The notes under the pieces are model-generated. The model saw only the letters and a list, made by a program, of their open reading frames with translations. It did no database searches and was not told where the DNA came from. Positions 427 to 56,248 of a stretch of 64,000 nucleotides of DNA are shown here, piece after piece; within the stretch, counting starts at the first letter, position 1; each line of letters opens with the position of its first letter. The DNA comes from Modestobacter sp. Leaf380 (lineage in GTDB: Bacteria > Actinomycetota > Actinomycetes > Mycobacteriales > Geodermatophilaceae). The DNA lies in the NCBI RefSeq assembly GCF_001424485.1, contig NZ_LMQC01000020.1:310001-374000 (forward strand). The letters run 5' to 3'. A program made the position numbers and the translations under genes.

Positions 427-587
427 CGCTTTGAAGATCAGGTGCCGACTCCCCTCAGACCGTCCCCGTGACCCGGGGCACTCGACGCCCGGACCACCCT
501 AGTGCGACCCGGTCTCGACCCGCCCGGGGACACCTCGGGTCGGCGGTGAACGGTGCACCGGGGGTGCCGCCCGGTCGTATGCTGGAC

Positions 588-614
588 CTGGCACTCGGAC
601 GAGGTGAGTGCCAA
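588..614 (+). promoter_or_regulatory. CIRCE operator for HrcA
   Basis: CTGGCACTC, nine bases, then GAGTGCCAA: an inverted repeat matching the CIRCE consensus (TTAGCACTC-N9-GAGTGCTAA) at nearly every position. It lies just downstream of a possible -10 hexamer TATGCT (578-583) with a weak TGCACC -35 (554-559), and 28 bases before the hrcA start. Binding of HrcA here would block transcription of hrcA-dnaJ until heat or unfolded proteins titrate GroEL. Confidence 0.85.
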
Positions 615-641
615 CCGCGGTGCGAGGAGGGGGTGGTCGGC

Positions 642-1688
642 GTGGCGCACGACGAACGCCGCCTGCAGGTCCTGCGGGCCATCGTGCAGGACTACGTCTC
701 GACCAACGTCCCGGTCGGCAGCAAGGCCCTGGCGGCCCGGCACGACCTGGGCGTCTCCTCGGCGACCATCCGCAACGACATGGCGGTGCTGGAGGAGGAG
801 GGGTACATCACCCAGCCGCACACCAGCGCCGGGCGGGTGCCCACCGACAAGGGCTACCGCTTCTTCGTCGACCGGCTCTCCCAGGTCAAGCCGCTCTCGG
901 TCGCCGAACGGCGGGCGATCGAGCGCTTCCTGGACGGCGCGCTGGACCTCGACGACGTCCTGGGGCGGACCGTGCGCCTGCTGGCCCAGCTGACCCGCAA
1001 CGTCGCGGTCATCCAGTACCCGACGCTGGCCCGCTCCGCCGTCCGGCACCTGGAGGTCGTGCAGCTGGCGACCAACCGGCTGCTGGTCGTGCTGATCACC
1101 GACACCGGCCGCGTCGAGCAGCGCGTCGTCGAGGTGCCCGCGGTGACCGACGCGCCCGCGGGCGCGGACCCGGTCGCCGAGCTGCGCACCCTGCTGAACT
1201 CCGCCTTCGTCGGCGCCAAGCTGGCCGAGGCCAGCGTCGCCGTCGCCGACCTGCTGGAGACCGCGCCCCCGCACCTGCGCGGGCTGGTCGCCGCGGTCAG
1301 CGCGACGCTGGTGGAGACCCTCGTCGAACCGGGGGAGGACCGGTTGCTCATCGGTGGCACGGCCAACCTCACCCGCGGCGGGGCACTGGACTTCCCGGGC
1401 AGCCTCCGGCCGTTGCTGGAGGCCCTGGAGGAGCAGGTCGTCGTCCTGAGGCTGATGGGCGAGGTGGCCCCCAGCCACGTGCTGGTCAGCATCGGCGAGG
1501 AGAACGAGCACGAGGGCCTGACGGGCGCCTCCCTGGTCTCGGTGGGCTACGGGTCGGTCGGTGGCACCGGCGACCTGGCGCTCGGCGGACTGGGCGTCGT
1601 CGGACCCACCCGGATGGACTACGCCGGGAACATGGCCGCGGTACGAGCCGTGGCCCGCTACGTCGGCCAGCTGCTGGCCGAGAGCTGA
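642..1688 (+). CDS. hrcA: Heat-inducible transcription repressor HrcA
   Basis: 348 residues, normal for HrcA. The N-terminal winged helix (about residues 1-75) includes the family pattern [23 protein letters not shown] and [16 protein letters not shown]; the rest is the dimerization/GAF-like region. HrcA represses class I heat-shock genes through CIRCE, and a CIRCE palindrome lies directly upstream, so autoregulation is expected. GTG at 642 is preferred because GAGGAGG ends 11 bases upstream; an in-frame GTG at 633 is too close to it. dnaJ follows after 15 bases, as in other actinobacteria. Confidence 0.95.
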
Positions 1689-38800: not shown

Positions 38801-38843
38801 GTGGGGCGGGTGGGGCTCGAACCCACGACCGAGGGATTATGAG
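38801..38843. repeat. attL (43-bp tRNA-Met fragment)
   Basis: Begins GTGGGGCGGGTGGGGCTCGA and ends GAGGGATTATGAG; identical to 56174-56216. It holds the tRNA 3' half (acceptor 3' strand, T-arm, variable loop and part of the anticodon arm) but continues into element sequence instead of the tRNA 5' half, so it is the non-functional copy. Confidence 0.93.
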
Positions 38844-40306: not shown

Positions 40307-40326
40307 GCGCCCAAGGAAGTAGGCAA

Positions 40327-40363: not shown

Positions 40364-40425
40364 TCTCGTGCGTGGAGCCGTTGCTCCGGGGCTACGCGGA
40401 GCGCAACGGCAGAGCTACCGACGAC

Positions 40426-40815: not shown

Positions 40816-41088
40816 TTACGCGGTGTGAGCAAGCGGCACGTCGGCCGCGTCTAACACGTCGAGCACCACGCTGATCTCATCGATCATCGATCGGGCGAAG
40901 TCGTCCACTGCCGCCACGACCTCGGCCCGGACGTCCCAGTCGAACGGGGCGAGACCAACCTCGACAAGCATTTCCCGGGCCACAACCTGCTTGATGGACA
41001 CACAGGCGACGCCCTCGATCATGGTCAGCTCGTGGTCGAACTTGTAGAGACGATCCTCCACAGTCACGGACACCTCCTGCTCTCCCAT
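40816..41088 (-). CDS. Small partner protein of the HEPN-like gene
   Basis: 90 residues, all-helical look and acidic: VTVEDRLYKFDHELTMIEGV, MLVEVGLAPFDWDVRAEVVA, FARSMIDEISVVLDVLDA. No DNA-binding motif. It precedes the HEPN-like gene with no intergenic base, a toxin-antitoxin-like layout. Identity unknown. Confidence 0.45.
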   Translation of the reverse strand: MGEQEVSVTVEDRLYKFDHELTMIEGVACVSIKQVVAREMLVEVGLAPFDWDVRAEVVAAVDDFARSMIDEISVVLDVLDAADVPLAHTA

Positions 41089-41275
41089 ACGGATAACGTC
41101 CCACGACTCACGGATCCCGGAGCACCGATGGACGCTGTGTAACGAGGCTTATCGGCGTGTTACCAACCGAACGTGACCGACTGTCACCCCACAGGGTGAC
41201 TCCGGGTGACTTCAGCCTCGTGCGCCACATCCGCCTCGGGCGCCCCTGGAGCGTGCTGTTCCTGCAGTGTGGCCG

Positions 41276-41572
41276 CTACGGACGGCGATCCTCCGGAGTC
41301 AGACCACCCCACACTCCGAACCGCTCGTCGGCGGCTAGCGCGTAGGCCAGACATGCGCCCGCGGCGGGGCAGCGGAGGCAGCCGTCAACGGCAAGCTCAA
41401 TGTCTTGCGGGGGCGTTCGCCGCTCCGGCCACCACAGGTCTGGATCGGTCTGCTGGCACGGCACCGGATGGTGCCTCTCCACGACTCGGCGTAGCTCGTC
41501 GGCCTCCGCGGCTGCGACGTCCAACCTGAGACCTGGTGGTCCTTCCGTCACTATCGAATCGGGCGTGCTCAC
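41276..41572 (-). CDS. WhiB-family iron-sulfur protein (element-encoded)
   Basis: 98 residues. Four cluster cysteines in WhiB spacing: PCQQ, then GCLRCPAAGAC, followed by the GVWGG turn and a short basic tail (LTPEDRR). WhiB proteins bind a 4Fe-4S cluster and sigma factor. Phage copies such as WhiBTM4 can interfere with host WhiB2; whether this one does is unknown. GTG start overlaps the stop of the preceding gene. Confidence 0.85.
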   Translation of the reverse strand: MSTPDSIVTEGPPGLRLDVAAAEADELRRVVERHHPVPCQQTDPDLWWPERRTPPQDIELAVDGCLRCPAAGACLAYALAADERFGVWGGLTPEDRRP

Positions 41573-41952
41573 GCGTACTTCGTGATGGCCCGCTGGTAGG
41601 TCGCCACCCGCTGTCGCTGGTCGGGCAGCCGCTCCGTCATCAGCTCAACGACGTGCCGCCCCTGCGCGTAGATCCGGGGGATGTGCTGGTTCGGGTTGTT
41701 GGCTTCTGCCGCGTGCTGCCGCAGCTCGGACTGCCGGTCCATCGCAGACACCCGCCGAGCCGCCGGCAGCCCGGCAGTGATTTCAGCGGCGAGCGTCTGC
41801 AGGCAGGCGCTGAGCATGATCTTGTCCTCCAACGTGGGCACGTGCCGCCACAGTCCAGCGAGCTTGTCGCCGTCCCCGGTCTCGAGCAGACCCAAGAGGA
41901 CGTTGGCCTGGGCCAGGCCGCGTGTGATGTGTGGGGGCAGGTTGTCGGTCAG
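41569..41952 (-). CDS. Hypothetical protein after the tape measure gene
   Basis: 127 residues. HITRGLAQANVLLGLLETGD, MLSACLQTLAAEITAGLPAA and RQRVATYQRAITKY suggest a helical bundle. There is no ATG or GTG near the expected start; a CTG at 41952 overlaps the tape measure stop (CTGA) and has GAAGGTG five bases upstream, so I use it. A TTG about 20 codons later is the alternative. Confidence 0.5.
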   Translation of the reverse strand: MTDNLPPHITRGLAQANVLLGLLETGDGDKLAGLWRHVPTLEDKIMLSACLQTLAAEITAGLPAARRVSAMDRQSELRQHAAEANNPNQHIPRIYAQGRHVVELMTERLPDQRQRVATYQRAITKYA

Positions 41953-44900: not shown

Positions 44901-45914
44901 GAACGACAGGTTGAGGTCGTCCATGAGTTCCCGGGTCTTGCCGACCGGGTTGGTCATCGACACCAACATGCCGCGGAACGACGTGCCGGCCTTCTCCCCG
45001 ACCAGGCCGTTCGAGGCGAACAGGCCCAGGGTGCCGGCGGTCTCCTCAATCGACAGGCCCAGCCCGGCGGCCGGAAGGCCGGCGTACTGCATAGCCAGTG
45101 CCATGTCCTGCACGGAGCCCTGCGCCTTGCCCGCGCCAGCGGCCATCAGGTCAGCGACGTGGGACACCTGATCCCCTGCGAGACCGAACACCACCATCTG
45201 GGTGGCGGCGATCTCCGCGGCCTGCCCAACCTCGAGCTGACCGGCGGCGGCCAAATCAAGAGCGCCAGCCAACCCACCGTTGAGGATGTCGGCGGTGGAC
45301 ACACCGGCCTTGGCGAGCTCGGTGATGCCCTGCGCGGCTTCCTCGGAGCTGTACTGAGTCGCCGCCCCCGCCTCGATAGCGAGGTCACGCAGGTCCCCAA
45401 GCACCGAGCCCGTCGCCATCGTCGCGGCCTGAACCTGCGACATCGCGGACTCGAACGCCGCACCACGGAACGCGGCGTAGCCGAACCCCAGGGCGACGGC
45501 ACCAAGACCGGCCGTCAGCGGGGACATCGATGTGCCCAGCAGCCCGTTCGACGCCGTCAGACCGCTGATCGCGGCCTGCTGTGCGCGAGCGGACACTGTC
45601 ATCGACTCGGCCGCACGAGCGTGAGCGCGGGACTGAGCCGTTGCCGACGCCGCGGCAGCCTCGGCGGCGCGGGTGTTCGCCCCGATGATCTGGCCCGACG
45701 CTGCGGTCTGCGTGCGGGCGCCGGCTTCCGCACTTCCACCGGCTCGGCCCGCCGCCGCAGCCTGGGCCTGCGCAGAAGCGCCCATCGCGGCGGAGACCCG
45801 AGTCAGAGAGCCTGTGACGGCCTGCTCGTAGGCGCGGGTGGATGCCGCAGCCTTCGTATAGACCGGGGACAGCAGGTCCCGGCCTAGCAGGATCGTCTCA
45901 AGGGTCCTGGCCAT
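41949..45914 (-). CDS. Phage tail tape measure protein with embedded M15-like peptidase motif
   Basis: 1321 residues. N-terminal Ala-rich helical part (1-110), then the conserved tape-measure core (FESAMSQVQAATMATGSVL, SSEEAAQGITELAKAGVSTA, NPVGKTRELMDDLNLSFFD), a hydrophobic block (about 455-560), and a C-terminal region with SDHALGKAID (His1103, Asp1110) and HYDHVHA: the SxHxxGxAxD...HxH zinc pattern of M15/VanY-type peptidases. It would set tail length and open the cell wall at DNA entry. TGATG links it to a mini-ORF upstream. Confidence 0.9.
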   Translation of the reverse strand: MARTLETILLGRDLLSPVYTKAAASTRAYEQAVTGSLTRVSAAMGASAQAQAAAAGRAGGSAEAGARTQTAASGQIIGANTRAAEAAAASATAQSRAHARAAESMTVSARAQQAAISGLTASNGLLGTSMSPLTAGLGAVALGFGYAAFRGAAFESAMSQVQAATMATGSVLGDLRDLAIEAGAATQYSSEEAAQGITELAKAGVSTADILNGGLAGALDLAAAGQLEVGQAAEIAATQMVVFGLAGDQVSHVADLMAAGAGKAQGSVQDMALAMQYAGLPAAGLGLSIEETAGTLGLFASNGLVGEKAGTSFRGMLVSMTNPVGKTRELMDDLNLSFFDGQGQFIGMEGVAGQLQQRLGDLTVEQRNAALAQIFGNEALGAAQALYGGGAAGVELWTSNVNDAGYAAEQAGILNDNLRGDLEKLGGAFDSTMTVVGGFTQGTLRFLVQGLTDLIDVGGDVVTWIADLPGPLQAAAAAVVAMYLATGPLSGVLLTAGSNMAGLAGRALGSVSSVSALTGSLVAARTAAIGLVTAAVPLAIVAGLAYAVTELVAFSNAGDDATASVKRMNDAIDDADGNTERFGNVTGSLDEVRDKINELSPVVESWSEENRSWFERAFIPVTSGVEDARQSLEVYQDALDDLEDKQERNGQNVEVLGRRYDLTRSQVEDFADAHGIDLSGSLQIVQTDFMRLAEASGMAATSMGVASGSAATGYESFTAYAAALGLADEAAEDLRKRTDELGESLGEFISPLGAYTGLLDSKKEAERQSAQATADATADQSDSWEDYVGDVTVSAQEYLQILRDQVTAQDEWQTNMLILASRVSQGTIDELARMGPEGAQLVADMVDFTDAELAEAEGVFAQRAANATGAWGLTLQQAQPVLSQIAATAGQGVADSLAAQLAAGTTTIAAIAAQYGIVLADGVNPVLRSLGRDAVIAAAPRAVPGTGGRHADGGPIWGAGTATSDSIPAWLSNGEYVLKASSVARNGVSALNDLNEGRASVSRFATGGFASVGAVPKPRSTAPFAPPLSSGADATMQAGYDAVAAWLGANLEQPPAAASGGSANGLLPIMAAARAYVAETYGVRNIGGFARRNIAGTNTLSDHALGKAIDVMTSDKTLGWAIANDLAFGAAKSRFNIENVIWQQSISSRGGPFKRMADRGSPTQNHYDHVHADTFANGGYVGPGSILNPHVRDQGGPLLPGYTYNGLSRPEWVLSMASGGMVRAEDGSMVPESFYSRTAGPSEGTLLSSAQRRIAAGQALTEAQAAAISRALNPQTMPGYGASSTPVVVVNNYIDGKQFRSMATEVTNGRLEDIYRSKVYS

Positions 45915-45997
45915 CAGCCCGTCACCCCCGGACGGGGTGCGGGCGACAGCCAGCGAGGTCGCGTCTCAACTGACTGCCGCCCGGGGGAACCACTCAC
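45914..45997 (-). CDS. Leader-like mini-ORF before the tape measure gene
   Basis: 27 residues starting MSGSPGRQSVETRPRW. Its GTG lies in a 57-bp element that is repeated at the start of the spike gene, and its stop shares TGATG with the tape measure ATG. It could be a translational-coupling leader or the stump of a deleted gene; coding evidence is thin. Confidence 0.3.
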   Translation of the reverse strand: MSGSPGRQSVETRPRWLSPAPRPGVTG

Positions 45998-46046
45998 AAC
46001 AGCAGCCTTAGGTGCTGTCGTACGTGGTGCGGTCGTCCTGTCCTAC
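45990..46046 (-). repeat. Start-associated repeat, copy 1
   Basis: On the minus strand it ends AGGCTGCTGTTGTGAGTGG, with GTG as the mini-ORF start. Aligns without gaps to 48640-48696 at 47 of 57 positions; the 19 bases nearest the start are identical. Probably a translation or transcription signal copied before two genes. Confidence 0.65.
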
Positions 46047-46112
46047 ACAGGTAGAGCGGTAGCACTCAATCGGTCAGCCACGTCAGCACCTATTCAGTTG
46101 TGAGGGTTGCCA

Positions 46113-46220
46113 TCAGGCCCAGGTCTCGACGGTGAAGCTGGTCATCCGCAGTACCGCCGCGGCTGCGGCCCGGGTGGTGATCTCGACGGCCACGGTCATT
46201 GGGCCGGTGTTCCACCGTGG
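46113..46220 (-). other. In-frame coding-like tail after the spike stop
   Basis: After the TGA at 46221-46223 the same frame continues for 35 codons: PRWNTGPMTVAVEITTRAAA, AAVLRMTSFTVETWA, then TGA at 46113. An internal ATG (46199) could also start a 28-residue ORF. It looks like the C-terminus of a tail protein: readthrough extension, nonsense truncation of the spike, or relic of a neighbour. Confidence 0.35.
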
Positions 46221-48647
46221 TCACCTCTTGTCGGCCACGATCGTCGGGGCAGCGCTGTAGGTGACGGTGGCGGACTCGCCCGGGGCCAGTCGCACCATGC
46301 GGTTGGTCGTGGTCGCCACGGTTGTTGCGCCCTTGGCGATGGTTGCCACCGTCCCGCCGTCCACGTACAGGTCCTCGGGGGCGTTCCCTGCTGTGTAAGT
46401 GAACGGGCTAGCCGTGACGGGCACAGCGGTGGGCCCAGCAGGCGGCAGGCCCAGGTTGTCCACGATGACCGAGGTGGCGTCCAGCAGCCCAGCGGCCGAG
46501 TACCCGACCGAGGTCGGGGATCCGATGAAGTTGTTGTCCTTCATCACCAGCCCAATCTGGGCGTAGGTGACCACTCGCAGGCCGATCGTCTGGGTGGGGG
46601 TGGTCTGGTCGTCGTAGAAGCGGTTGTCGGCCACCTCGAGGCCGGTCGTTGCGACCGCGAGCCGGATGCCGTAGGTGTCGTTCGCCGAGGCCCGCACCCC
46701 GTTGTTGACGATCGTGTTCCCCCGGATGCGGCAGTTGTAGACCCGCTTGCTGACGCCGCCGTTGAAGCCCAGCAGCATCCCGGACTGACCGTTGCCGCGG
46801 ACGTGGTTGTCGCTGATCTCCACGCCGTAGGAGTCGACGGTGTAGATCTGGTAGACGATCCCGTAGCCGCGGTTGCCGAGGACCTGGTTGTTGGTGACGC
46901 GGCAGCGGATGACCGACTTGCTGGTGTGGCTTGAGGTGCCCTGGTCGGAACCGTCGATCCAGATGCCGTGGCCAGCGGCGTTGGTGACGCCGTTGCGGCA
47001 GATGTTGCCGGTGATCAGGGTGTCGATGCCGGGCACCCCGGCGGGGATGGTGCCGCCGCCGATGGCGATCTGGGCGAGGGTGTTGCCCTCGCAGATGTTG
47101 CCTTCGATGACGGTGCCGAGGGCGCCGGCGTCGAGGATGCCGAAACGCATCCCGCTGACGTAGTTGCCGATGATCCGGACGCCGGAGGTCATCGTGGCTG
47201 CGGTGCCGGACTGGGACTCGACGAAGATGCCGTTGTTGCCGTTGGGCGCGATCGTCGAGGTGGCGACGCCGAGGATGACGTTGCCGATGACGAGGACCTG
47301 CTCGGCGTTGGTCGTGGACAGGGTCCCGATGCCGATCCCGGACCCGCCTGGCAGGTTGCCGGCAGCGGCGCAGCGGCCGGGGTTCACGATGAGGTTGAAC
47401 CCCAGGGTGCACTGGTCTCGGGAGTTGTCGTACGGGATCGCGGTGGCGGGGGAGTCCCAGATGGCGATGTTCATCGTGGACGACTGGCCCATGTTGAACA
47501 GGTTGTAGGGCTTGGTCGAGGACGAGTAGGAACCGCCGCAGTTCATGTTCCCGGCTTCGATGCCGAAGTCCCGGTCGTGGACCGCTGAGATCTGACCGCC
47601 GGCGGCCCGCATCCAGCCCCCGGAGGCGGTGATGGGGCAGATCAGGGAGATGCTGCGGCCGTCGCCGAAGTAGGAGACGTAGGAGTAGCGGTTGAGCTGG
47701 GCGGTGGTGATGGACCGGCCAGCGGGGATGAAGACCCGGCCACCGCGGGTGGAGAACTGGCCCAGGGCCCGGGCTGCGTCCTGGGCGGCGTTGAACGCCG
47801 CGTCGTCAGATGTGCCGAAGGTGGCCCGCCCGGCGGACACGGTGCTGATCGCGTTGTTGTTCAAGGTGGCGGTGTTGCCAGAGACGGACACGATCGTGGA
47901 CTGCAGCACGGTGTTGATGGCGCTGGTGGTGGTGCCGGCACCTTCGACGCCGATGACCTTGCCGATGTCGGCGGAGATGAAGGTGTAGGCCGTGGAGGTG
48001 AGGACCGCGGAGCCAGCGGTCATCGACACGTCCTCCAGGCGGATCCCGTCGCACTTGGCTCCGTAGTCCTTGATGCTGAACACCCGCTGCCCGGCCAAGC
48101 CACCGCTGCCGCTGCCGCCGGAGGCGGTGACGACCAGGTCGACGCGGTTCGCTGCGTCGTTGTAGGCGGCTGTAATCCCGGTGTGCTGGCCGTTGACCAG
48201 CAGTGCCGCCGCGGCGTCCTGAGCCTGCTCGTCGGTGTAGCTGACGCCACCGCCGCCAGTGGGCAGTGCGTCGGTGACAGCCTTGAGGCCTGCTGGAGTA
48301 ACAGCCCGAACTGCGTCTGTGCCGGTGATCGTCTCGGCGTTCGTCGCCAGCTCGACGATGCCGCGGGTGGTCGTGGATGCGTTCTCAACTGACCCACCAC
48401 CCCCGCCAGAAGCTCCAATCAACCCGCGGACCGAGGACCCAGTGGTGGATCCCGCGTTGTTGACCAGGCCTGCGACCTCGGTGTCCAGAGACGCGTTGTT
48501 CACCGGCGGTTCCGGGTCGGCCGGGTTGACCAGCACCCAACCCTTCCCCTGCCAGTACAGGATCACGTCCGGCCGGTTCGGGTAATCCCGGGTGGCGTTC
48601 AGGGCGGCATTGAACATGGGCACGGTGTCGGTTGCAGGACCACTCAC
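46221..48647 (-). CDS. Right-handed beta-helix tail spike/fibre protein
   Basis: 808 residues. N-terminal tail-association part with ILYWQGKGWVLVNPADPEPP and a Gly/Ser linker; then FSIKDYGAKCDGI, the classic start of a pectate-lyase-like beta-helix; then many short strand repeats (VIGNVILGVAT, IIGNYVSGMRFG, ITGNICRNG, VTNNQVLGNRGYG, ISDNHVRGNGQ, IRGNTIVNNG). Likely binds or cuts a surface polysaccharide. GTG start lies in a repeated 57-bp element. Confidence 0.85.
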   Translation of the reverse strand: MSGPATDTVPMFNAALNATRDYPNRPDVILYWQGKGWVLVNPADPEPPVNNASLDTEVAGLVNNAGSTTGSSVRGLIGASGGGGGSVENASTTTRGIVELATNAETITGTDAVRAVTPAGLKAVTDALPTGGGGVSYTDEQAQDAAAALLVNGQHTGITAAYNDAANRVDLVVTASGGSGSGGLAGQRVFSIKDYGAKCDGIRLEDVSMTAGSAVLTSTAYTFISADIGKVIGVEGAGTTTSAINTVLQSTIVSVSGNTATLNNNAISTVSAGRATFGTSDDAAFNAAQDAARALGQFSTRGGRVFIPAGRSITTAQLNRYSYVSYFGDGRSISLICPITASGGWMRAAGGQISAVHDRDFGIEAGNMNCGGSYSSSTKPYNLFNMGQSSTMNIAIWDSPATAIPYDNSRDQCTLGFNLIVNPGRCAAAGNLPGGSGIGIGTLSTTNAEQVLVIGNVILGVATSTIAPNGNNGIFVESQSGTAATMTSGVRIIGNYVSGMRFGILDAGALGTVIEGNICEGNTLAQIAIGGGTIPAGVPGIDTLITGNICRNGVTNAAGHGIWIDGSDQGTSSHTSKSVIRCRVTNNQVLGNRGYGIVYQIYTVDSYGVEISDNHVRGNGQSGMLLGFNGGVSKRVYNCRIRGNTIVNNGVRASANDTYGIRLAVATTGLEVADNRFYDDQTTPTQTIGLRVVTYAQIGLVMKDNNFIGSPTSVGYSAAGLLDATSVIVDNLGLPPAGPTAVPVTASPFTYTAGNAPEDLYVDGGTVATIAKGATTVATTTNRMVRLAPGESATVTYSAAPTIVADKR

Positions 48648-48696
48648 AACAGCAGCCTCAGGGGTTGTCCTACGTAGTGAGTTCGCGTTGTCCTAC
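48640..48696 (-). repeat. Start-associated repeat, copy 2 (spike gene)
   Basis: Contains the spike GTG (48647), GAGG eight bases before it, and two direct copies of CGTAGGACAAC (minus strand, about 22 bases apart) further upstream. Partner copy at 45990-46046. The 118 bases beyond it (48697-48814) hold no gene that I can see. Confidence 0.65.
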
Positions 48697-48814
48697 GTGA
48701 GAGGGAAGTGCCGGGACGCAGGTGACCCCGCCTTCCTCCGGCGGACATCAATCACCTTGGATCCAGCGGCGACAGAGAAGCGCCGCCGGTGACTTTGACG
48801 CCCCGGCACAAGTC

Positions 48815-49852
48815 TTATGAGCTGATCGCCGCCGCGTGCTTCGTCATGTCGACGTCGCAGCCGTTTTGGCACGCAATGGCCAACACTGCGCCCTTCGTGG
48901 CATCAGAGGATTCAGTCTTGGCCCGCTTCGTCACCGGCGCAGTGCTGCGGCAGCTTGGACAACGGCTGTAGTCCACCCACACAGACTGGGTGCCATTGGC
49001 CATCAAAGAGCCCGGGCGCACCTCTCGGGCCAGCACAGCCCCGCCGCAGGTCACCTTTGCGCTACCCCCGCCGGCCTGCAGCTTGACCCGCTTGCCCCAC
49101 ATGCGGCTCCCGTCCTGGTCGGGCAGGGTGACAACTTCAATGCCGCCGTACTGGCCGCTGGTCGAGACCTCGAAAGTGGCGGATCCGACGCCTTCACTGA
49201 TCCGGCAACTGACCTGGCTCTCGCTGTCCACGTCGTCCCAGGCGGGCACCAAGATGGAGGCGGTGGGCACGACCGGCGCCACAGCCCGCGCCGCAGCGGC
49301 ACGTTCAGCGGCCACACGCTGCTCCAGGCGGCTGGCCTCATCGAGGAGGGGCTGTACCGGATCCCACAGAACGGTCCCGTGAGGAACCTCCCAGGAGAAG
49401 TGGCCGTCGTTGAACATCCCGGACTGGATGTCCTCCTTCGAAGGCTCGAACGGGACGTAGTCGACACCGTCCAGCTCGCGCAGTTGCGCTAGCAGCGTGG
49501 TGACCTTGGCCTGATGCGCCTCGGCCGTAGCCGTGAACTTCGCGGCCTGGTCACGCATCTCCACGGCCCGTGCCTCGTCGAGGTCCCACCGAGCAAGGAC
49601 AAGCTGCTCCTCGGCAGCCGCAGACGCACCCTGGGCACCAACGATCCACGTCCGCAGATCCATCTGCCGGATGGTCAGCTCACGAACGGCAGAGGCCGGG
49701 TCGTGGGCCAGCACAGCCGCACCGGAGTCGCGCTCCAAGTCAGCGAGCTCACGCCTGCGGTTCTCCGCTTCGGTGGTCCAGCGGGCAACCTCTCGCTCAA
49801 GCCGCTCAACCTCGGACTCGGCACCCCGCAACGTCCTCAGGATGTTGCTCAT
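48815..49852 (-). CDS. Coiled-coil protein with C-terminal cysteine motif, after capsid protease
   Basis: 345 residues. N-terminal third is a long coiled coil (ESEVERLEREVARWTTEAEN and on, to about residue 125). The middle is beta-rich; the C-terminus has CPSC and CQNGC cysteines that could bind zinc. The position after the protease is where scaffold or capsid genes usually lie, but it does not look like a capsid protein. ATG at 49852 overlaps the protease stop. Confidence 0.5.
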   Translation of the reverse strand: MSNILRTLRGAESEVERLEREVARWTTEAENRRRELADLERDSGAAVLAHDPASAVRELTIRQMDLRTWIVGAQGASAAAEEQLVLARWDLDEARAVEMRDQAAKFTATAEAHQAKVTTLLAQLRELDGVDYVPFEPSKEDIQSGMFNDGHFSWEVPHGTVLWDPVQPLLDEASRLEQRVAAERAAAARAVAPVVPTASILVPAWDDVDSESQVSCRISEGVGSATFEVSTSGQYGGIEVVTLPDQDGSRMWGKRVKLQAGGGSAKVTCGGAVLAREVRPGSLMANGTQSVWVDYSRCPSCRSTAPVTKRAKTESSDATKGAVLAIACQNGCDVDMTKHAAAISS

Positions 49853-50610
49853 GCGTCCCACCGGGACCTCCACGACGACTCGATGACCTCATAGGAGCCG
49901 CCGCGTCCGGCGCGAGTCACGAAGTCCACCGACTGACCGTCCACGATCTTGGTAGCGATGCGTCCTCGCCGGCCCTCGGCCTCACCGATCTCCAGCTCAG
50001 CCGACGCCCGGATCGACATCCCGATCGACCGGGCCATGTCCGGCTGACCCAAGGTCTGGGCCCAACCCGGCAGCAGCTGCGCCTCCGCGACCACCGCCGA
50101 CCCAGACCAACGGGCATCAGTCGTCAACACCGCAGCCAGATCACGCACCGACCGCTCCGGCCTGTCGTTGAGCTCCCGCTGCGTGGGGTGATCAGCGAAG
50201 CAATGTGTGCCAGCCGGCCACACCTTGTCGCGCACCGCGGCCTCAAGCACCTGAGCTGAGTAGTAGCAAGACGAACCCCACCCCGGGCTGATCAGCGTGA
50301 CCCGCAGACGGCCGGCGCTCGTCACCACGGGGGCGACTGTCGTCGACTCCTGCAGCTGCGTGAGCCCCCGCGTCAGCGTCCCCGCCGATTCCGAGACACC
50401 AGTCGCCGCCCGGCGGGCCTCCTCCGCCTCCCAGAGGGCCGTCTGCCGAGCGTGCTCGAGGTACTGGGCGTTCGAGTGCATCGCCGGCAGCCAGTTGGGG
50501 CGCGAGACGACCTGCTCACCCGCGCCCTCCCGCAGCCGCGGGGAGCGCCCCAACGCCTCATCCATCTCCGCCAGCTGACGCCGGGCCACATCCTGCTGCG
50601 AAATGCTCAC
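49849..50610 (-). CDS. Capsid maturation (prohead) protease-like protein
   Basis: 253 residues. RVTLISPGWGSSCYYSAQVL, then PAGTHCFADHPTQRE, RPERSVRDLAAVLTTDARW and IGMSIRASAELEIGEAEGRR follow the order seen in actinophage capsid maturation proteases, with a His (ADHPT) and a Ser (GMSIRA) at the usual catalytic places. VDFVTRAGRGG ends the fold. A protease without a visible capsid gene nearby is odd. Confidence 0.75.
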   Translation of the reverse strand: MSISQQDVARRQLAEMDEALGRSPRLREGAGEQVVSRPNWLPAMHSNAQYLEHARQTALWEAEEARRAATGVSESAGTLTRGLTQLQESTTVAPVVTSAGRLRVTLISPGWGSSCYYSAQVLEAAVRDKVWPAGTHCFADHPTQRELNDRPERSVRDLAAVLTTDARWSGSAVVAEAQLLPGWAQTLGQPDMARSIGMSIRASAELEIGEAEGRRGRIATKIVDGQSVDFVTRAGRGGSYEVIESSWRSRWDA

Positions 50611-51035
50611 GACGCCACCGCCTGCCGGTACGCCAGCACAGACGCCCGCGTCACCAACGTCTTCCGCGGCGAGACAGCCCGACCGCGCAACACACCCTCG
50701 ACCACCAAACGGAGCACCGTCCTCGAACTCACATGCAGCACGTCAGCCGCCTCCCTCGTCGTGAACTCATGAGGCAACCCTGAGCCCGTGTCCGACACCG
50801 CGGCCGCCGCCTGTCCTACCTCCGCCCCAGCGAACGCCCGCTGCCAGTTCGCCACGTAACCCAAATCGACCAAGTCGTCATCAACAGCAAGCTGGTCCTC
50901 AACGGGGAGGTCACGCTTCACCCGGTTCATCCAGCCCACGAACCCGCTTTTGTCCGCCTCCAAGTACATGACCAGCAGCCGAGCCGTGGCCGGGGACAAC
51001 GTGGCACGCAGAGGGCGCCGCCCTGGGCCGTTCAC
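50607..51035 (-). CDS. Hypothetical protein with C-terminal HTH (excisionase-like) domain
   Basis: 142 residues. N-terminal half LSPATARLLVMYLEADKSGF and DLVDLGYVANWQRAF; C-terminal half EFTTREAADVLHVSSRTVLR plus LRGRAVSPRKTLVTRASVLA, a MerR-like HTH_17. Its start (GTG) and stop both overlap neighbours (GTGA, TGA/CAT), so it is in a tightly coupled leftward operon. Probably a regulator; not recognised further. Confidence 0.6.
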   Translation of the reverse strand: MNGPGRRPLRATLSPATARLLVMYLEADKSGFVGWMNRVKRDLPVEDQLAVDDDLVDLGYVANWQRAFAGAEVGQAAAAVSDTGSGLPHEFTTREAADVLHVSSRTVLRLVVEGVLRGRAVSPRKTLVTRASVLAYRQAVAS

Positions 51036-51454
51036 GAAGCCTCCCCGTAGACAGTGGCCTCGCAGCCGGCGCAGGAACGTCCTGTGACCAGCAGCGTCCG
51101 CAGGTGGAAGCCGAATACCTCGAGCGGGGCCACGGCCCGGCACACGTCGCACCGCGGGCCGTCCAACGACCCCGGCAAGGCCTTCGCCGCCCGCCCCGCG
51201 CACGCCTTGCACAGGAGCTGCTCCGCGTGGGCGGGCAACAGCACCAAGTCAGAGCCCTCCCCCGGCCAGTGCGGGCAGCGGTTTCGCCGTGCCCGCTTCA
51301 CCAGCCGCACAACCCACGCCGACGGCTCGCGCGTGTAGTCGGTGCCACGGGCACCCGCCATCGCTACAAAGCGGTCAGCGGCCTCCTCAAGGGCACCAGC
51401 GGCCTGGTCAGCAAGAAACGTCGTTCGGGCGTGGTTCAAATCAATCCGGGTCAC
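51032..51454 (-). CDS. Hypothetical cysteine-rich (zinc-ribbon-like) protein
   Basis: 140 residues. Helical start (LADQAAGALEEAADRFVAMA), then three CxxC pairs (CKAC, CDVC, CAGC). GTG at 51454 has AAGGGA upstream; ATG at 51463 is also possible. Overlaps the HTH gene by GTGA. Unknown function. Confidence 0.5.
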   Translation of the reverse strand: MTRIDLNHARTTFLADQAAGALEEAADRFVAMAGARGTDYTREPSAWVVRLVKRARRNRCPHWPGEGSDLVLLPAHAEQLLCKACAGRAAKALPGSLDGPRCDVCRAVAPLEVFGFHLRTLLVTGRSCAGCEATVYGEAS

Positions 51455-51557
51455 GCGGCACATCCCTTGACCAGGCCCGACCCAGGGATTGCAGATCCCA
51501 CACTGAGGCCCTGAGCTGCGCTGATGTCGGCCGTGGTCACACGGTGAGCACCAGCCC

Positions 51558-52148
51558 TCATGCCTGCAACTCCCGCAGTCGAGTCGAGACGACCTGCAGA
51601 ACACGGCGGTCGCTCAGGCTGTGCCCGAGGTCGCTCAAGATGGCCCGGATAGCGGCAGCGACCTGCGCCCCCTGCTGCTCGGCGATACGAACGCGGCGCT
51701 CGTCCACGCCCGCATCCAGCACGGCCTTCGAAAGCCGGCTGACGAGCTCCATCCATGTGCGCAGCGCATCCAGGTCGTGAGCGCGCAGCTCGCCCGAACG
51801 CTCCACCCGCTGCTGCAGCGAACGCAGCACCTGGTCCGCGTTCACTGCCGCCGCAGCCAGCGCCTCCCCCGGATCCCGTGGCACGTACTGGTCGGAGAAC
51901 ATCGCGACCGCCTCGGCAGCAGCCAAGCGCGCCTCCCGCTGCCGCCGCACCTGTCTCGCGCTGCCGCCATGCCAGCCACAGACACCACCACCAGGTACAC
52001 GCTGCCCGCACTGCTTGCCTGTGCGCTTCGACGTGGCGGTGCAACGGGATGAGCTGTTCAGATGGCTCATGAGCTTGGGCCCGCTCAAGAGGTCAAAGCC
52101 GTCCGCGGGCTCTGCCTGGCCGTCCGTGGCTGCCGAGATGCGGCTCAT
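51558..52148 (-). CDS. Terminase small-subunit-like protein
   Basis: 196 residues. RCTATSKRTGKQCGQRVPGG, then GVCGWHGGSARQVRRQREAR, the CTA.sKRtG.qC..........C..HGG motif found at the N-terminus of small phage proteins usually annotated as small terminase. The rest is helical (AAAAVNADQVLRSLQQRVE and on). No large terminase follows. DNA-packaging role is inferred. Confidence 0.55.
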   Translation of the reverse strand: MSRISAATDGQAEPADGFDLLSGPKLMSHLNSSSRCTATSKRTGKQCGQRVPGGGVCGWHGGSARQVRRQREARLAAAEAVAMFSDQYVPRDPGEALAAAAVNADQVLRSLQQRVERSGELRAHDLDALRTWMELVSRLSKAVLDAGVDERRVRIAEQQGAQVAAAIRAILSDLGHSLSDRRVLQVVSTRLRELQA

Positions 52149-52345
52149 CGGGGGTTCCCTTCGAGCTGGTAGGTGAGGTTGTGGCTGCGGTTTGCGAGGT
52201 GGGGGCGGCAGGTGAGGCAGGGGACGGCGAGCCCGTCGGGGGTGTCGGGCAGCCAGCCGGCGACGCAGCGAGGGTCGTGGGGGAGGGGGTCAGCAGTCCT
52301 GACCCGCTCGTCCTCGATGAGGTCGCCGTAACGGTCATGAGGCAT
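52145..52345 (-). CDS. Small hypothetical protein
   Basis: 66 residues with three cysteines (RCVAGWLPD, PCLTCRPHL). Start and stop overlap neighbours (10 bases with the upstream gene, ATGA with the next). Unrecognised. Confidence 0.5.
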   Translation of the reverse strand: MPHDRYGDLIEDERVRTADPLPHDPRCVAGWLPDTPDGLAVPCLTCRPHLANRSHNLTYQLEGNPR

Positions 52346-53009
52346 GTCGTCGGGCTCCCTTGGTCTCGCTGGCGCAGGCGGTGCACGGCCATCCGCTGAA
52401 CTCGTGTCCGTGCTTGTTGCATCGCGGGTTCGCGCGTGCGGTCTGTGGGTGCGTTGGGATCTGAACCACGGTTGTTCTGGTCGTTGTGCTGGTAGGTGGT
52501 TGGTCTCTTAAGTGATGGGCGGCAGCTGCTGCCGGTTGGGGTGCGTGAGCTGCCGGTTGGGAGGAAGGAGCTGCCGGTTGGGGTGCGCTCAGCTGCCGGT
52601 TGGGACTCGACGTACCGGCAGCTGCTGCCGGTTGGGAACGGGGGCCAGGCGGCAGCTGCTGCCGGTTGGGAACGACTTCCTCGTCAGTGGTGAGGAGGTC
52701 GAATCGCTCGAGCAGGTCGGCTGGGATCTGCAGCTGGTAGACGTCGGCGAAGGCGTGGGTGCCACGCATCCCGCCCTTGACGGTTCGGTGGACAAGCCCC
52801 AGGTCCCGAAGGTTGGTGAGGGCGCCGCGGACGGACCGCTCCGACAACCCGGTGACGGCCGCTAGCCGGGCTGCGCCGGGGTAGATGCGCGACCCGTCGC
52901 CGTCTGCGTACGTGGCCATCGCGAACCCGACAGCCTTGGTCGTTGAGGGCAGCCGACAGCGACGGAACACCCGTTCCCACTCGAAGCGGCCGGCGTTCTC
53001 GACGCTCAC
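52335..53009 (-). CDS. Winged-helix replication-initiator-like protein
   Basis: 224 residues. N-terminal helix-turn-helix of the phage replication O/DnaD-like type: VFRRCRLPSTTKAVGFAMAT, IYPGAARLAAVTGLSERSVR and ALTNLRDLGLVHRTVKGGM. A low-complexity Gln/Pro/Ala linker (about 113-168) is encoded by an iteron array; a CNKHG...CTAC zinc-like motif ends the protein. This matches the lambda O plan, where the origin lies inside the initiator gene. GTG start. Confidence 0.65.
   Translation of the reverse strand: MSVENAGRFEWERVFRRCRLPSTTKAVGFAMATYADGDGSRIYPGAARLAAVTGLSERSVRGALTNLRDLGLVHRTVKGGMRGTHAFADVYQLQIPADLLERFDLLTTDEEVVPNRQQLPPGPRSQPAAAAGTSSPNRQLSAPQPAAPSSQPAAHAPQPAAAAAHHLRDQPPTSTTTRTTVVQIPTHPQTARANPRCNKHGHEFSGWPCTACASETKGARRHAS
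52528..52670 (+). repeat. Six iteron-like repeats inside the replication gene
   Basis: GCTGCCGGTTGGG occurs exactly at 52528, 52549, 52570, 52592, 52624 and 52658 (start-to-start 21, 21, 22, 32, 34 bases, near whole helical turns). The gene reads the repeat in two frames (PNRQ in two copies, QPAA in four), so DNA, not protein, appears conserved. Probable replication origin. Confidence 0.75.
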
Positions 53010-53055
53010 CAGGCGAAGCCGCCCTCACACGGCGTCGTGTCGATTGTCAGAGCGG

Positions 53056-53433
53056 TCACCTGACACCCGACCCGACCCAAAGCCGCTGAACACCGTTGCG
53101 TCGACTGCCGCGCCGGCTAGGGGTGTAACCGACTGGCTCGATCTGCCCAGCTGAGCGTGCAGCGAGGAATAGGCCGCCGACCGCGTTTGGGTGGTCCGGC
53201 ATCGGCGCACCGAGGGCGTGGCAATCGTCGCTGGTGAACGGCCGTCCCGTGCTGGCCAGGAAAGCGATCGCGGTGCGCCAGGCGGAGATGGCCCAGGGAT
53301 CCGCGGCTTCGACGGCCTGACGAGGGCCTAAAGATCCGGTACCTTTCGGGGTGAGACCCAGCGCGTTGGTGGCGACGTTCTCAGAAGAGCCGGTCGGGAT
53401 GCCCCCCGCCGGCTCTTCGCCTGTCTGGCTCAT
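53056..53433 (-). CDS. Actinophage-type hypothetical protein
   Basis: 125 residues. C-terminal half RPFTSDDCHALGAPMPDHPN, then AVGGLFLAARSAGQIEPVGY and SRRNGVQRLWVG, a winged-helix-like pattern common in early regions of actinobacterial prophages. ATG overlaps the stop of the upstream gene. Role unknown, possibly replication accessory. Confidence 0.6.
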   Translation of the reverse strand: MSQTGEEPAGGIPTGSSENVATNALGLTPKGTGSLGPRQAVEAADPWAISAWRTAIAFLASTGRPFTSDDCHALGAPMPDHPNAVGGLFLAARSAGQIEPVGYTPSRRGSRRNGVQRLWVGSGVR

Positions 53434-53681
53434 GTCGTGCTCCCTATTGAGTTGTGGGTCGTCTGGGGCTCAAGCTCCAAACCGAGAAACCTGCATAGGG
53501 ATGCGACCGGGACGACGACGCGGTTCCCGACACGCACGGCCGGGAAGTCGAGCTCGCCGCGACGGAACAGCTCGTAGGCCTTGGTGCGCTTCGCCCCGTA
53601 GGCCGCATCGCACGCCGTCACGAGGTCGGTGCGGACACCGAGTGCCCTTAGCCGCTCGGGAGTCCACGGCTCAGGCAACAT
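53430..53681 (-). CDS. Small helix-turn-helix protein
   Basis: 83 residues. TACDAAYGAKRTKAYELFRR, then GELDFPAVRVGNRVVVPVAS, a MerR/excisionase-type DNA-binding layout. Start lies 11 bases inside the preceding HTH gene, so the two are co-translated. Possibly a regulator. Confidence 0.6.
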   Translation of the reverse strand: MLPEPWTPERLRALGVRTDLVTACDAAYGAKRTKAYELFRRGELDFPAVRVGNRVVVPVASLCRFLGLELEPQTTHNSIGSTT

Positions 53682-53886
53682 GAGAGGCGTTGGCGGTGGC
53701 CCCGACGTGGCTGGAACGTGCTCCGTCCACCAACCACTCCTCGACGTCGGATGGGCGGTAACGGACCTGCCGGCCGACCCGAACGAACGCCGGCCCCTCA
53801 CCCAGCGCCCGCCAACGGCGGAGGGTCGACTCGGATACGTCCAGACACTCGCTGAGCGTGGAAGGACTGAGGACGGTCTGACTCAT
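53671..53886 (-). CDS. Excisionase/HTH_17 DNA-binding protein
   Basis: 71 residues. TLSECLDVSESTLRRWRALG, then GPAFVRVGRQVRYRPSDVEE and WLVDGA, the standard AlpA/excisionase fold. First gene leftward from the divergent repressor, the place of a Cro/AlpA-type activator. Which of the HTH proteins in this element is the true excisionase is unresolved. Confidence 0.75.
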   Translation of the reverse strand: MSQTVLSPSTLSECLDVSESTLRRWRALGEGPAFVRVGRQVRYRPSDVEEWLVDGARSSHVGATANASHVA

Positions 53887-53902
53887 GACTCATCTCCTAC
53901 GG

Positions 53903-53956
53903 GTTGGATCTCCAACACGAAGGAATCATCAACGCCACGCGCGGTTGCAAGCAACC
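53903..53956. promoter_or_regulatory. Paired palindromic operators between repressor and early genes
   Basis: GTTGGATCTCCAAC (53903-53916) and GGTTGCAAGCAACC (53943-53956) are two related palindromes (GGTTG..CAACC), about 40 bases centre to centre; a half site TCCAACC follows at 53973. They lie between the starts of the divergent HTH gene (53886) and repressor gene (53983). Confidence 0.65.
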
Positions 53957-53982
53957 ACAAGCGGCATTAAGCTCCAACCCAA

Positions 53983-54750
53983 ATGAATGGGACCGAGAGT
54001 GACCAGCCGTCAGCCACCGTCGAGGACGTCCTCGCCCGGGCCAACGCGCAGATAGAGCGAGCTCAGGCCGAGCAGCTTCGAGATCAGGGCTACGAGTCCA
54101 TGGACGAGCTGCTCGCAGCGGCCGAGACGCAGGCGCGCGAGCAGGCCCTGGGCCAACCGTCCTGGGCCGATCTTGAGGAGTCGCTGACCAGCCTGGCTGC
54201 CGAGGACCACATCGCTCGCAGACTTGAGTCGCTGCGGACACGTGCGGGCCTCTCACAGGAGGCGCTGGCAGCACGGCTGAGGGCGCTCGGAGTTCAGATG
54301 CCCCAGTCGTCGATCTCGAAGATCGAGGGACCCGTGAGGCTCGGCCGCGGCAAGCGCCGAGACATCACTGTCGACGAAGCCATCGCTCTCTCGAAGGCCC
54401 TCGGAGTGAGCCTCACCGAGCTGTTGCTACCCGATGATGCGCTGGATGACCTGCATCTCCACCGGATCATGGCGAGCGCAGGCAAGCTGTGGCAGGCGCG
54501 CCAGGTAGCGCAGCTGGACTACGAGTACGCCGTCGGCAAGTTGGTGCAGGCCGCTCAGGAACGACCGGAGTGGCGCAGCCGGTTCGCCGAGGACCTGGAC
54601 CTTCTCTGGCGCATCGAGAAGGGTACGGACGACGAGGGGACCCCCCTCACCGACCTGCCTCTGCCCTCCATGGAGACGACCTGCGTGCGAGAGGTGCTTG
54701 CGGACGTCACGAGCCGCCTCGAGGCCAAGGCCAGCGAGGGTGAAGCGTGA
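53983..54750 (+). CDS. XRE-family phage-type repressor
   Basis: 255 residues. N-terminal coiled coil (ARANAQIERAQAEQLRDQGY), then an HTH (HIARRLESLRTRAGLSQEAL, about residues 75-120, with PQSSISKIE as the recognition part), and a helical C-terminus. No peptidase domain, so not LexA-type. Likely keeps the element silent by binding the palindromes just upstream. Its stop overlaps the integrase start (GTGA). Confidence 0.75.
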   Translation: MNGTESDQPSATVEDVLARANAQIERAQAEQLRDQGYESMDELLAAAETQAREQALGQPSWADLEESLTSLAAEDHIARRLESLRTRAGLSQEALAARLRALGVQMPQSSISKIEGPVRLGRGKRRDITVDEAIALSKALGVSLTELLLPDDALDDLHLHRIMASAGKLWQARQVAQLDYEYAVGKLVQAAQERPEWRSRFAEDLDLLWRIEKGTDDEGTPLTDLPLPSMETTCVREVLADVTSRLEAKASEGEA

Positions 54751-56237
54751 AGGGCTCCACCCACAAGCGCTGCGGCTGTCGGGACGAGAACGGCCGTCAG
54801 TACGGGGCTCGCTGTCCCAAGCTGGGCAGGAAGGGCCACGGCGCCTGGTGGGGTCGCTACGACGCCCCACGGGCCGTCGACGGGCGGCGCCGGCAGGAAA
54901 AGCTCGGACCGTTCGCGACGAGGGCGGAAGCAGAGACCGCTCTGGCTGATGCCGTGCAATCGGTCAGCCGCGGGACGTACCTGCGCCCGGAGCGCGACCT
55001 CACCGTCGGCCGCTACCTCGACGAGTGGCTGGAGGGGAAGACGCGCCTCAAGGCCTCGACGCGCCACGGCTACGACCAGCACATCCGGCTGTACCTGCGG
55101 CCGGCCCTGGGGCACCTGCGACTGTCGGACCTGCGCGACGTCGATCTAGACGCCTTGTATGCCGCGATGCGGCACATCGGGCGCCACGTGGATGCCCGGC
55201 CCTCGCCTCTGCTGCGCCGGCTGCTCGAGGTTCGCACTGACACCGCTGCGGCCCGCCGACCTCTCTCGGACGCCACCATCCGCCGTGTGCACGCCACCGT
55301 CATGTCCGCTCTCAGCGCGGCCGTGAAGCGTCGGAAGATCGCGGTCAACCCTGGCGAGCATGTCGAGCTTCCCGCCGGCCGCGCAGACCGCCCCCTCGTC
55401 TGGACGGACCACCGCATCGAGTCCTGGCGCCGAACGGGGAAGCGCCCGGCCACGTCGATGGTCTGGACCCCGGAGCAGGCCGGCGCGTTCCTCGACTACG
55501 CCGCGGCAGACGAGCTCGCGCCCATGTGGCACCTCATTGCCTTCCGAGGACTCCGCCGCTCCGAGGCAGTCGGCCTGCCATGGTCCGACGTCGACCTTGA
55601 CAGAAGGACGCTGACGGTTCGGGAGACCCTCGTGCAGGTCGGGCGAGACGTTGTCGGGGGTGACACCAAGACCGAGGCCAGCGCCCGGACGGTGAGCCTC
55701 GACGCCGGCACCCTCGAGGTGTTGCGCGCCCACCGGCGGCGTCAGACCGAGCTGAGGCTGCTCCTCGGCAAGGCGTGGACCGACACCGGGCTTGTCTTCA
55801 CCAAGGCCGACGGAACCGCCCTGCTGCCCAACAGCGTCTCCCAGCGCTTCGACCGGCTCGTGGTGCGGTCAGGGTTGCCACCCGTCCGCCTGCACGACCT
55901 CAGGCACCTCGCCGCATCGCTGACGTACCGGGCCACCCGGGACATCAAGCTCACGAGCAAGCTGCTCGGCCACGCGTCCACGGCCATCACCGAGCAGGTC
56001 TACCTGTCGGTGTTCGAGGACGTCGAGCGCGACGCCGCCGAGTCGGCCGCCGCCTTGGTGCCGCGGGCCCCCCGGCGGTCCGCGGGCGATTCAGTGCCCA
56101 CTATGTGCCCACCTGCCAGTCCGACGATGGGCCAGGTCAGCAGCCTGCCGGGCGAACCCGCAGGTGAGGAGGAGTGGGGCGGGTGGGGCTCGAACCCACG
56201 ACCGAGGGATTATGAGTCCCGTGCTCTGACCGGCTGA
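54747..56237 (+). CDS. Tyrosine recombinase integrase
   Basis: 496 residues as integrated. N-terminal Arm-binding part with CGCRDENGRQYGARCPKLGR (Cys-rich), core-binding SAM-like domain about 90-180, catalytic domain with Arg270 (GLRRSE), HDLRH (His383, Arg386), His in LLGHAST and nucleophile Tyr419 (QVYLSV). The reading frame runs through attR into the tRNA gene, ending SRALTG. In the excised circle the tail would be TGRPGVVDKRL. Recombines attP with tRNA-Met. Confidence 0.93.
   Translation: MKGSTHKRCGCRDENGRQYGARCPKLGRKGHGAWWGRYDAPRAVDGRRRQEKLGPFATRAEAETALADAVQSVSRGTYLRPERDLTVGRYLDEWLEGKTRLKASTRHGYDQHIRLYLRPALGHLRLSDLRDVDLDALYAAMRHIGRHVDARPSPLLRRLLEVRTDTAAARRPLSDATIRRVHATVMSALSAAVKRRKIAVNPGEHVELPAGRADRPLVWTDHRIESWRRTGKRPATSMVWTPEQAGAFLDYAAADELAPMWHLIAFRGLRRSEAVGLPWSDVDLDRRTLTVRETLVQVGRDVVGGDTKTEASARTVSLDAGTLEVLRAHRRRQTELRLLLGKAWTDTGLVFTKADGTALLPNSVSQRFDRLVVRSGLPPVRLHDLRHLAASLTYRATRDIKLTSKLLGHASTAITEQVYLSVFEDVERDAAESAAALVPRAPRRSAGDSVPTMCPPASPTMGQVSSLPGEPAGEEEWGGWGSNPRPRDYESRALTG
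56174..56216. repeat. attR (43-bp tRNA-Met core)
   Basis: Identical to 38801-38843. Here the repeat lies inside the complete tRNA-Met gene, so integration restored the tRNA. It also codes for part of the integrase C-terminus. Confidence 0.93.
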
Positions 56238-56248
56238 GCTACCGCCCC
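56175..56248 (-). tRNA. tRNA-Met (anticodon CAT, elongator-like)
   Basis: On the minus strand: acceptor GGGGCGG pairs with CCGCCCC, D-arm GCTC/GAGC, anticodon loop CTCATAA, T-arm GTGGG/CCCAC with TTCGAGC. No CCA is encoded. Resembles actinobacterial elongator tRNA-Met rather than initiator; tRNA-Ile2 (lysidine-modified CAT) is the alternative. Confidence 0.88.

Follow-up and report, generated by a model that had tools for sequence, protein, structure and literature searches.

An integrated element with an initiator-like gene

The window analysed here, a 64-kb stretch of Leaf380 DNA, carries two copies of a 43-bp repeat of the 3′ end of a tRNA-Met gene, at 38801 and 56174, which therefore delimit an integrated element of ∼17.4 kb (∼38801–56248; Table 1). 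Besides integrase, repressor-like, excisionase-like and WhiB-type genes, the element encodes tape-measure, tail-fibre/pectin-lyase-like and head-protease-like proteins. A 352-residue protein encoded between the protease-like and tail genes (48815–49873) has no Pfam or PHROG match. Among the 18 ORFs that were scanned, a part of the element's ORFs, no family of large terminases, portals or major capsid proteins was recognised, and the element may therefore be a remnant or satellite. No ParA-type family was found in the same 18 ORFs, and no P-like helicase-loader gene was recognised among the neighbouring element ORFs scanned. The gene at 51558–52148 has a weak terminase small-subunit match (0.028, below the cut-off). 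The small ORF downstream of the initiator-like gene is 46% identical over 67 columns (E 2e-16) to the ORF that follows the initiator gene of a related locus, L011.

Table 1. Features of the integrated element and its initiator-like gene, in window coordinates; iterons are numbered in gene order.
Feature	Position	Strand	Basis or remark
att repeat, 43 bp, 3′ end of tRNA-Met	56174..56216	.	tRNA-Met at 56174-56248
Second att repeat	38801..38843	.	Repeat search
Tyrosine integrase	54747..56237	+	Pfam/PHROG; gene ends in tRNA-Met
HTH_3 repressor-like gene	53983..54750	+	Pfam/PHROG
HTH_17 / excisionase-like gene	53671..53886	-	Pfam/PHROG
Initiator-like gene, 224 aa, HTH_36	52335..53009	-	Pfam HTH_36 8.9e-9; PHROG initiator matches
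Winged-helix DNA-binding domain as modelled, residues 3-106	52692..53003	-	AlphaFold2, pLDDT 94.0
Iteron 1, CCCAACCGGCAGC	52658..52670	-	With inverted half-site, arms CGGCAGC / GCTGCCG at 52650-52664
Iteron 2	52624..52636	-	Inverted half-site, 9-bp arms ACCGGCAGC / GCTGCCGGT at 52614-52632
Iteron 3	52592..52604	-	Half-site only
Iteron 4	52570..52582	-	Half-site only
Iteron 5	52549..52561	-	Half-site only
Iteron 6, adjoins low-stability region	52528..52540	-	Inverted half-site, arms CGGCAGC / GCTGCCG at 52520-52534
Candidate DNA unwinding element	52458..52517	.	Least stable 60-mer of 52301-53060 (computed)
C-terminal Cys/His motif CNKHGHEFSGWPCTAC, residues 197-212	52374..52421	-	CxxH..CxxC pattern
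Small ORF downstream of initiator, 66 aa	52145..52345	-	L011 counterpart; no Pfam/PHROG family match
WhiB-type regulator gene inside element	41276-41572

The initiator-like gene contains an HTH_36 domain (PF13730) that scores 35.5 bits against a gathering cut-off of 25. It matches PHROGs 1032, 391 and 270, all labelled 'replication initiation', at 9.6e-11 to 3.7e-9; the match to PHROG 391 ('O-like') is at 2.4e-10, and the top match, PHROG 26991, is without function. The domain is modelled as a confident winged helix (pTM 0.83), with Arg-61 and Gly-62 (alignment columns 56–57) in the recognition helix. In a Foldseek search of the PDB, the Rep–DNA complex of a RepA_N initiator (5kbj) ranks first (E 1.7e-3, TM 0.52) and 4pql and 4pt7 are within the first 14 matches, all of these PDB matches having E values above 0.001 and TM scores of ∼0.5, as for many winged helices. 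In BFVD, the O protein of phage Min27 ranks tenth (TM 0.67, rmsd 1.9). Solved structures searched by sequence returned general winged-helix regulators. The modelled fold resembles those of RepA_N plasmid initiators and of a phage O protein. The C-terminal Cys/His motif is a possible zinc knuckle; a CxxH-x(4-25)-CxxC pattern follows the domain, on its C-terminal side, at 8 of the 58 divergent loci described below, Leaf380 included.

Six identical iterons read in two frames

The plus strand of the window carries six exact copies of GCTGCCGGTTGGG, spaced 21, 21, 22, 32 and 34 bp apart and lying within the initiator-like gene. The word occurs nowhere else in the 4,764,686-base genome, in which the reversed word has no copies. 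With up to three mismatches the window has 92 matches, against 66.6 ± 8.1 expected and a maximum of 87 in 100 shuffles. On the gene strand the word reads CCCAACCGGCAGC; with frames counted from the start codon at 53009, two copies (52658 and 52592) are translated in the PNRQ frame and the other four in the QPAA frame. The number, strand and spacing of the copies, their two reading frames and their place inside a replication-initiator gene had all been proposed in the first-pass annotation; the exact word search, the translation and the domain and PHROG matches bear out each of these points. Several exact direct repeats at helical spacing, beyond chance expectation, place the Leaf380 array among origin-type iteron arrays.

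Arrays at the same place in relatives

The Leaf380 protein was matched in 8 of 112 genomes of the same family, its own counted, and at nine loci in viral contigs. It found no match at 1e-5 among phage records, and neither did the L016, L029 and L427 proteins; in genome_contigs, none of 296 pattern matches was confirmed. Several relatives carry a different word at the same place, with copies 21–23 bp apart, namely AAGTCTAAGTGACAT in L016 and its kin, AAAGGGTGCAA in L024, ATGTCCCCCCGC in L011 and GACCACAGGCACT in L008. In the L016 kin a stop codon lies inside the first iteron and the remaining copies are beyond it.

Profile searches covered 394 genomes of the class, 396 of the phylum and 397 of the order (samples of larger groups, partly overlapping), and together with further retrieved genomes and viral loci gave 220 distinct domains. 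An array lies directly 3′ of the domain at 81 of the 211 distinct homologous domains with enough DNA. The control regions gave 2 of 217 directly 5′ of the domain and 1 of 204 at +500..950, scored by the identical criterion, which itself includes 20–25 bp spacing. Spacings of 30–36 and 43–48 bp were added to the array criteria in the course of the analysis. The detector found no array at 136 of the 220 domains, some of which may be other HTH proteins and some of which may have degenerate arrays. Five of 84 arrays (L091, L112, L125, L130 and L180) were dropped by hand, leaving 79 loci, of which 72 are under 85% and 58 under 60% identity. Genome G000 has a second HTH_36-like gene (G000:C21:160178-160612, L015) at which no array was detected.

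Of the 58 loci under 60% identity, 54 have the entire array inside the ORF, three have part of it there and one has it outside. Among the 54 arrays with at least three copies in the gene, 51 are read in more than one frame. This bears on the view that selection keeps the repeats for their protein product, a low-complexity linker, with DNA identity as a by-product. Selection of that kind would suit the three arrays read in a single frame, including L203 with its five spacings of 24 bp; exact 13-mers in two frames in Leaf380, the multi-frame arrays of the relatives and the copies beyond the stop codon in the L016 kin make it extremely unlikely, and these last two observations uphold the earlier proposal that selection acts on the DNA. 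Comparison of the relatives, a check suggested at the outset, showed that the place of the array and its helical geometry are kept while the iteron sequence changes and the frames are mixed; a conserved linker without the DNA repeat is therefore a case that was not seen.

The six copies are identical, as they would be after a recent duplication. However, their flanks differ, and their spacings are unequal yet helically phased; the same layout recurs with other words in many relatives, and the control regions are near-empty (2/217 and 1/204). Chance or a recent duplication without function thus has a negligible probability as the source of the array.

Helical spacing and dyad-like end copies

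Across the 58 loci the spacings peak at 22, 33 and 45 bp, and some lie at 55–58 and 66–70 bp. When phase zero is required, the 215 spacings taken together fit 11.3 bp best and the 98 outside 20–25 bp fit 11.4 bp best; 10.5 bp fits poorly. The 11.3-bp period holds only under that requirement; if the phase is left free, the best fit to the 88 spacings of 26–75 bp is 12.05 bp, and none of 2000 random sets fits as well. In L070 and L074 the middle copies follow one another at just 12 bp, roughly one turn, and are flanked by more widely spaced copies that are dyad-like by eye and not by the per-copy score used below.

The inverted-repeat scores of the six Leaf380 copies are 6, 6, 3, 2.5, 2.5 and 6 in gene order. 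The detector had first added a seventh copy with two mismatches, 55 bp before the array (dyad score 4.0); it is probably due to chance, and the final scoring used six copies. In the 49 of 58 loci with at least four copies in one chain, the dyad excess over shuffled flanks is 1.58 for the first copy, 0.78 for middle copies and 1.47 for the last (Wilcoxon, 2.6e-4 for first and 2.1e-3 for last copies). This per-copy score replaced, after the first result had been seen, an earlier score with one fixed centre per array, by which first copies exceeded middle ones (p 6.6e-5) and last copies did not (p 0.49). The earlier score was applied to 39 of 51 arrays: eight had been removed by hand because they were weak or were GC-rich coding repeats, and arrays of three copies or fewer had also been excluded. 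On average, the first and last copies of an array are more palindromic than those between them; the Leaf380 array follows this rule, and many single arrays deviate from it.

A low-stability, strand-specific stretch adjoins the array

The candidate unwinding element directly adjoins the last iteron and belongs to the ∼0.05% least stable 60-mers of the integrated element; the minimum starts at 53873, away from the array. Its gene strand carries GACCAACCACCTACCAGCACAACGACCAGAACAACC (52505–52470). In 56 loci, the motifs ACCAAC, AACCRYC, CCAACC and AACCAC, a list drawn up after inspection of the sequences themselves, occur 85 times on the gene strand and five times on the other in the 110 bp after the array, compared with 7 versus 2 in a control stretch further on and 13 versus 3 in the domain. 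At least two such motifs are found in 22 of the 56 loci; Leaf380 has three, with one on the other strand. A CGCGCG-rich stretch follows the ACC-rich motif at some loci, for example L038, L048 and L609, and 16 of 55 loci have CGCGCG within the 98 bp that follow the array.

There are 15 DnaA boxes (TTRTCCACA) in the 11.4 kb of array DNA and two in 193 kb elsewhere. They lie in or beside 15 of 55 arrays (L017, L021, L026, L053, L095–L100, L112 and L138–L141), which are not independent because they are mostly kin of L016, L026 and L100. The Leaf380 array has none.

Two other functions for a bound repeat array have to be weighed against these observations. An HTH_36 transcription factor could repress or time its own operon through the array, with replication starting elsewhere; the Leaf380 protein does have weak Pfam matches to GntR and CggR_N, below their cut-offs, and its PDB matches by sequence and by fold include many MarR and ArsR regulators. 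Such an operator would be unlikely, given that the arrays lie 3′ of the domain and seldom 5′ (2/217), that a low-stability ACC-rich stretch adjoins, that DnaA boxes accompany 15 of 55 arrays and that the protein matches PHROG initiators. The array may have an additional regulatory role beside an origin function. Repeat arrays are also typical of centromeres, and the terminase small-subunit match nearby, weak as it is, could point to packaging. That the protein binds a partition (centromere-like) or packaging site is nonetheless very unlikely: the 18 element ORFs scanned, not all of those present, include no ParA-type or large-terminase family, and the low-stability stretch and DnaA boxes of the relatives fit replication better.

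The recognition helix co-varies with the iteron

Iteron similarity was compared with identity in the 13-residue recognition helix, corrected for the rest of the domain. Over 72 loci the partial rank correlation for the helix is 0.109, which none of 500 permutations reaches, and that for the rest of the domain given the helix is 0.046 (18/500). In the 58 loci under 60% identity the values are 0.080 (2/300) and 0.046 (19/300). In absolute size the helix correlation is small, and it still includes part of the effect of shared ancestry. Among 65 single columns, 57 (z 4.5) and 56 (z 3.6), neighbours in the recognition helix, give the strongest signal. Columns 73 (in the wing, z 2.7), 22 (2.7) and 29 (2.5) were discounted because columns 19 and 30 fall to −3.0 and −2.3. 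In a sliding scan the highest value, 0.321, came from a sparse N-terminal window, set aside because it comprised few pairs (171); the helix window follows with 0.169 (2556 pairs) and a wing window with 0.122 (820 pairs).

Loci with Gln/Lys-Arg at columns 56–57 have a GGGG core in 7 of 11 cases, against 6 of 47 others (p 0.0012), the GGGG/CCGG grouping having been fixed after the table had been seen. A test from the DNA alone was performed by scanning viral contigs for GGGGTGACA occurring twice at iteron spacing. At least 120 stretches were found, against four in all for the reversed word. Among the matches listed, 89 of 114 chains of at least three copies have the domain directly 5′ on the same strand, none has it directly 3′ on the same strand, and 11 have it beside the chain on the other strand. 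The 46 distinct domains under 80% identity among these matches all have Arg at column 57, and 35 have Gln/Lys-Arg (QR 25, KR 10, RR 3, TR 2, NR 2, IR 2, VR 1 and HR 1); the profile that found them was built from the 79 loci, and part of the 46 may share descent. Of those 79 loci, eight contain GGGGTGAC (seven as GGGGTGACA) and have QR in seven cases and RR in one, while the 71 loci without it have QR in 5, QR or KR in 15 and Arg at column 57 in 37.

With ACCGGCAG as the word, the test yielded 55 chains in viral contigs, of which three have a domain (RD, QD and YE; the QD and YE chains are spaced 24, 24), and 55 chains in genome_contigs, none with a domain, an outcome that lends weight to neither side. 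Leaf380 and L203 are 33% identical and share both RG and ACCGGCAG, a pair weakened because the L203 copies, all 24 bp apart, may be coding repeats. Taken together, the co-variation and the DNA-only test with GGGGTGACA support the view that the array is read by the winged helix of the very protein encoded there. Binding by the winged-helix N-terminus, as the first-pass annotation had it, thus gains computational support from the helix–iteron co-variation and the GGGGTGACA test.

A putative origin and a possibly readable protein–DNA pairing

The position and geometry of the array, the adjoining stretch, the modelled fold and the co-variation all point the same way: the six-copy array is very probably the replication origin of the integrated element, bound by the product of the gene in which it lies, as had been proposed at the outset. 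One winged helix would read one half-site; the outer copies, with their inverted half-sites, would take up subunits in pairs, and copies about two or three turns apart would hold stacked subunits on the same face of the helix. The complex may then open the low-stability ACC-rich stretch at 52458–52517, where host helicase and primase could enter, perhaps with the help of the Cys/His tail or of some other factor. The array-encoded linker would be a passenger.

A broader reading joins three parts, and we give it an even chance of being right as a whole: self-labelled protein–DNA pairs, a two-residue helix code (Arg-61 and Gly-62 in Leaf380) and a polar origin design with ∼11.3 bp per turn. Each DNA-binding domain would be encoded close to the DNA that it binds, at a distance of a few dozen up to a few hundred bases, and two adjacent helix residues would set the iteron core, making thousands of natural winged-helix specificities readable from sequence. 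The origin would run from one or more dyad copies through half-sites two turns apart to a last dyad, followed by a loading region, ACC-rich and strand-specific, and its DNA would have ∼11.3 rather than 10.5 bp per turn. One layout with changing words recurs at many actinobacterial prophage-type loci and in viral contigs, and the pairing of a domain with its probable target can therefore be compared without experiment. This renders both the winged-helix recognition code and the reason for the end dyads directly testable. It also supplies a search rule for origins in unannotated prophages, namely the domain, a phased array and an ACC-rich stretch.

Relation to known in-gene origins

A few model systems are known to have their origin within the initiator gene. 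The arrangement seen here is known in kind, from lambda O and pSK41, and its domain is shared with pPR9. What appears to be added is the polar dyad tendency, helical phasing across loci, a strand-specific motif and, above all, a readable pairing of helix and iteron. Among the matches listed in a literature search, with subscription journals mostly outside its range, no title or abstract opening concerned the arrays or helix code of this family.

The lambda iterons are imperfect inverted repeats in the O gene, bound by O dimers and adjoined by an AT-rich region, and in Stx phages with six iterons O has 13 extra residues, according to the accessible part of one account (PMC7466680). As in ori-lambda, the Leaf380 iterons lie in the initiator gene 3′ of the DNA-binding domain, and a region computed, from stability only, to be prone to unwinding directly follows them; the starts of the annotated lambda iterons are separated by 20, 24 and 23 bp. 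All lambda iterons are inverted repeats, whereas three of the six Leaf380 copies are. A P-like loader was not recognised among the scanned Leaf380 neighbours, and the Leaf380 protein has a Cys/His tail. The A2 profile found no match to lambda O even at E 1000. The earlier 'lambda-like' label is therefore best taken to mean that the system works like lambda: the in-gene iterons and their layout in relatives agree with it, and it does not imply demonstrated kinship in sequence.

In RepA_N initiators (pSK41 and pTZ2162) a winged-helix N-terminus binds Rep boxes inside rep, and in pSK41 the boxes are central in the gene and the linker encoded by the origin is dispensable, as described in the accessible part of PMC5703833. 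The likeness extends to the fold, since the top PDB match of the Leaf380 model is 5kbj. The families differ, PF06970 as against PF13730, and PF06970 is absent from the Leaf380 Pfam matches to E 0.1. The C-terminal domain of the pSK41 protein binds DnaG, whereas no such domain was recognised in the Leaf380 protein. By the same account (PMC5703833), pPR9 is a working replicon whose Rep protein has a PF13730 N-terminus and is similar to a putative replication protein of a phage. Relative to pSK41, both the N-terminal domain of this Rep and the origin region have been exchanged. The likeness of Leaf380 to pPR9 is drawn from this published description and lies in the shared Pfam domain, pPR9 being a staphylococcal plasmid with a pSK41-type C-terminal half.

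In mycobacterial prophages with RepA, the accessible text places the origin within or next to repA and identifies no repeats (PMC7157519). HTH_36 proteins are also described in phage replication regions, in reports whose main text, so far as accessible, does not contain the word 'iteron' (PMC8951638, PMC4936722).

The 'DNA replication protein O' of Bordetella phage vB_BbrS_PHB09 (MN103401) shares both the domain and an in-gene array, of AAAGGGTGC. It differs from the Leaf380 protein in its long C-terminal part and in its recognition residues, QY rather than RG. The PHB09 copies are 84, 21, 21 and 22 bp apart, the first and last look like dyads, and AACCRTC repeats lie behind them. The L024 protein, 40% identical to that of PHB09, likewise has QY, and its locus carries AAAGGGTGCA.
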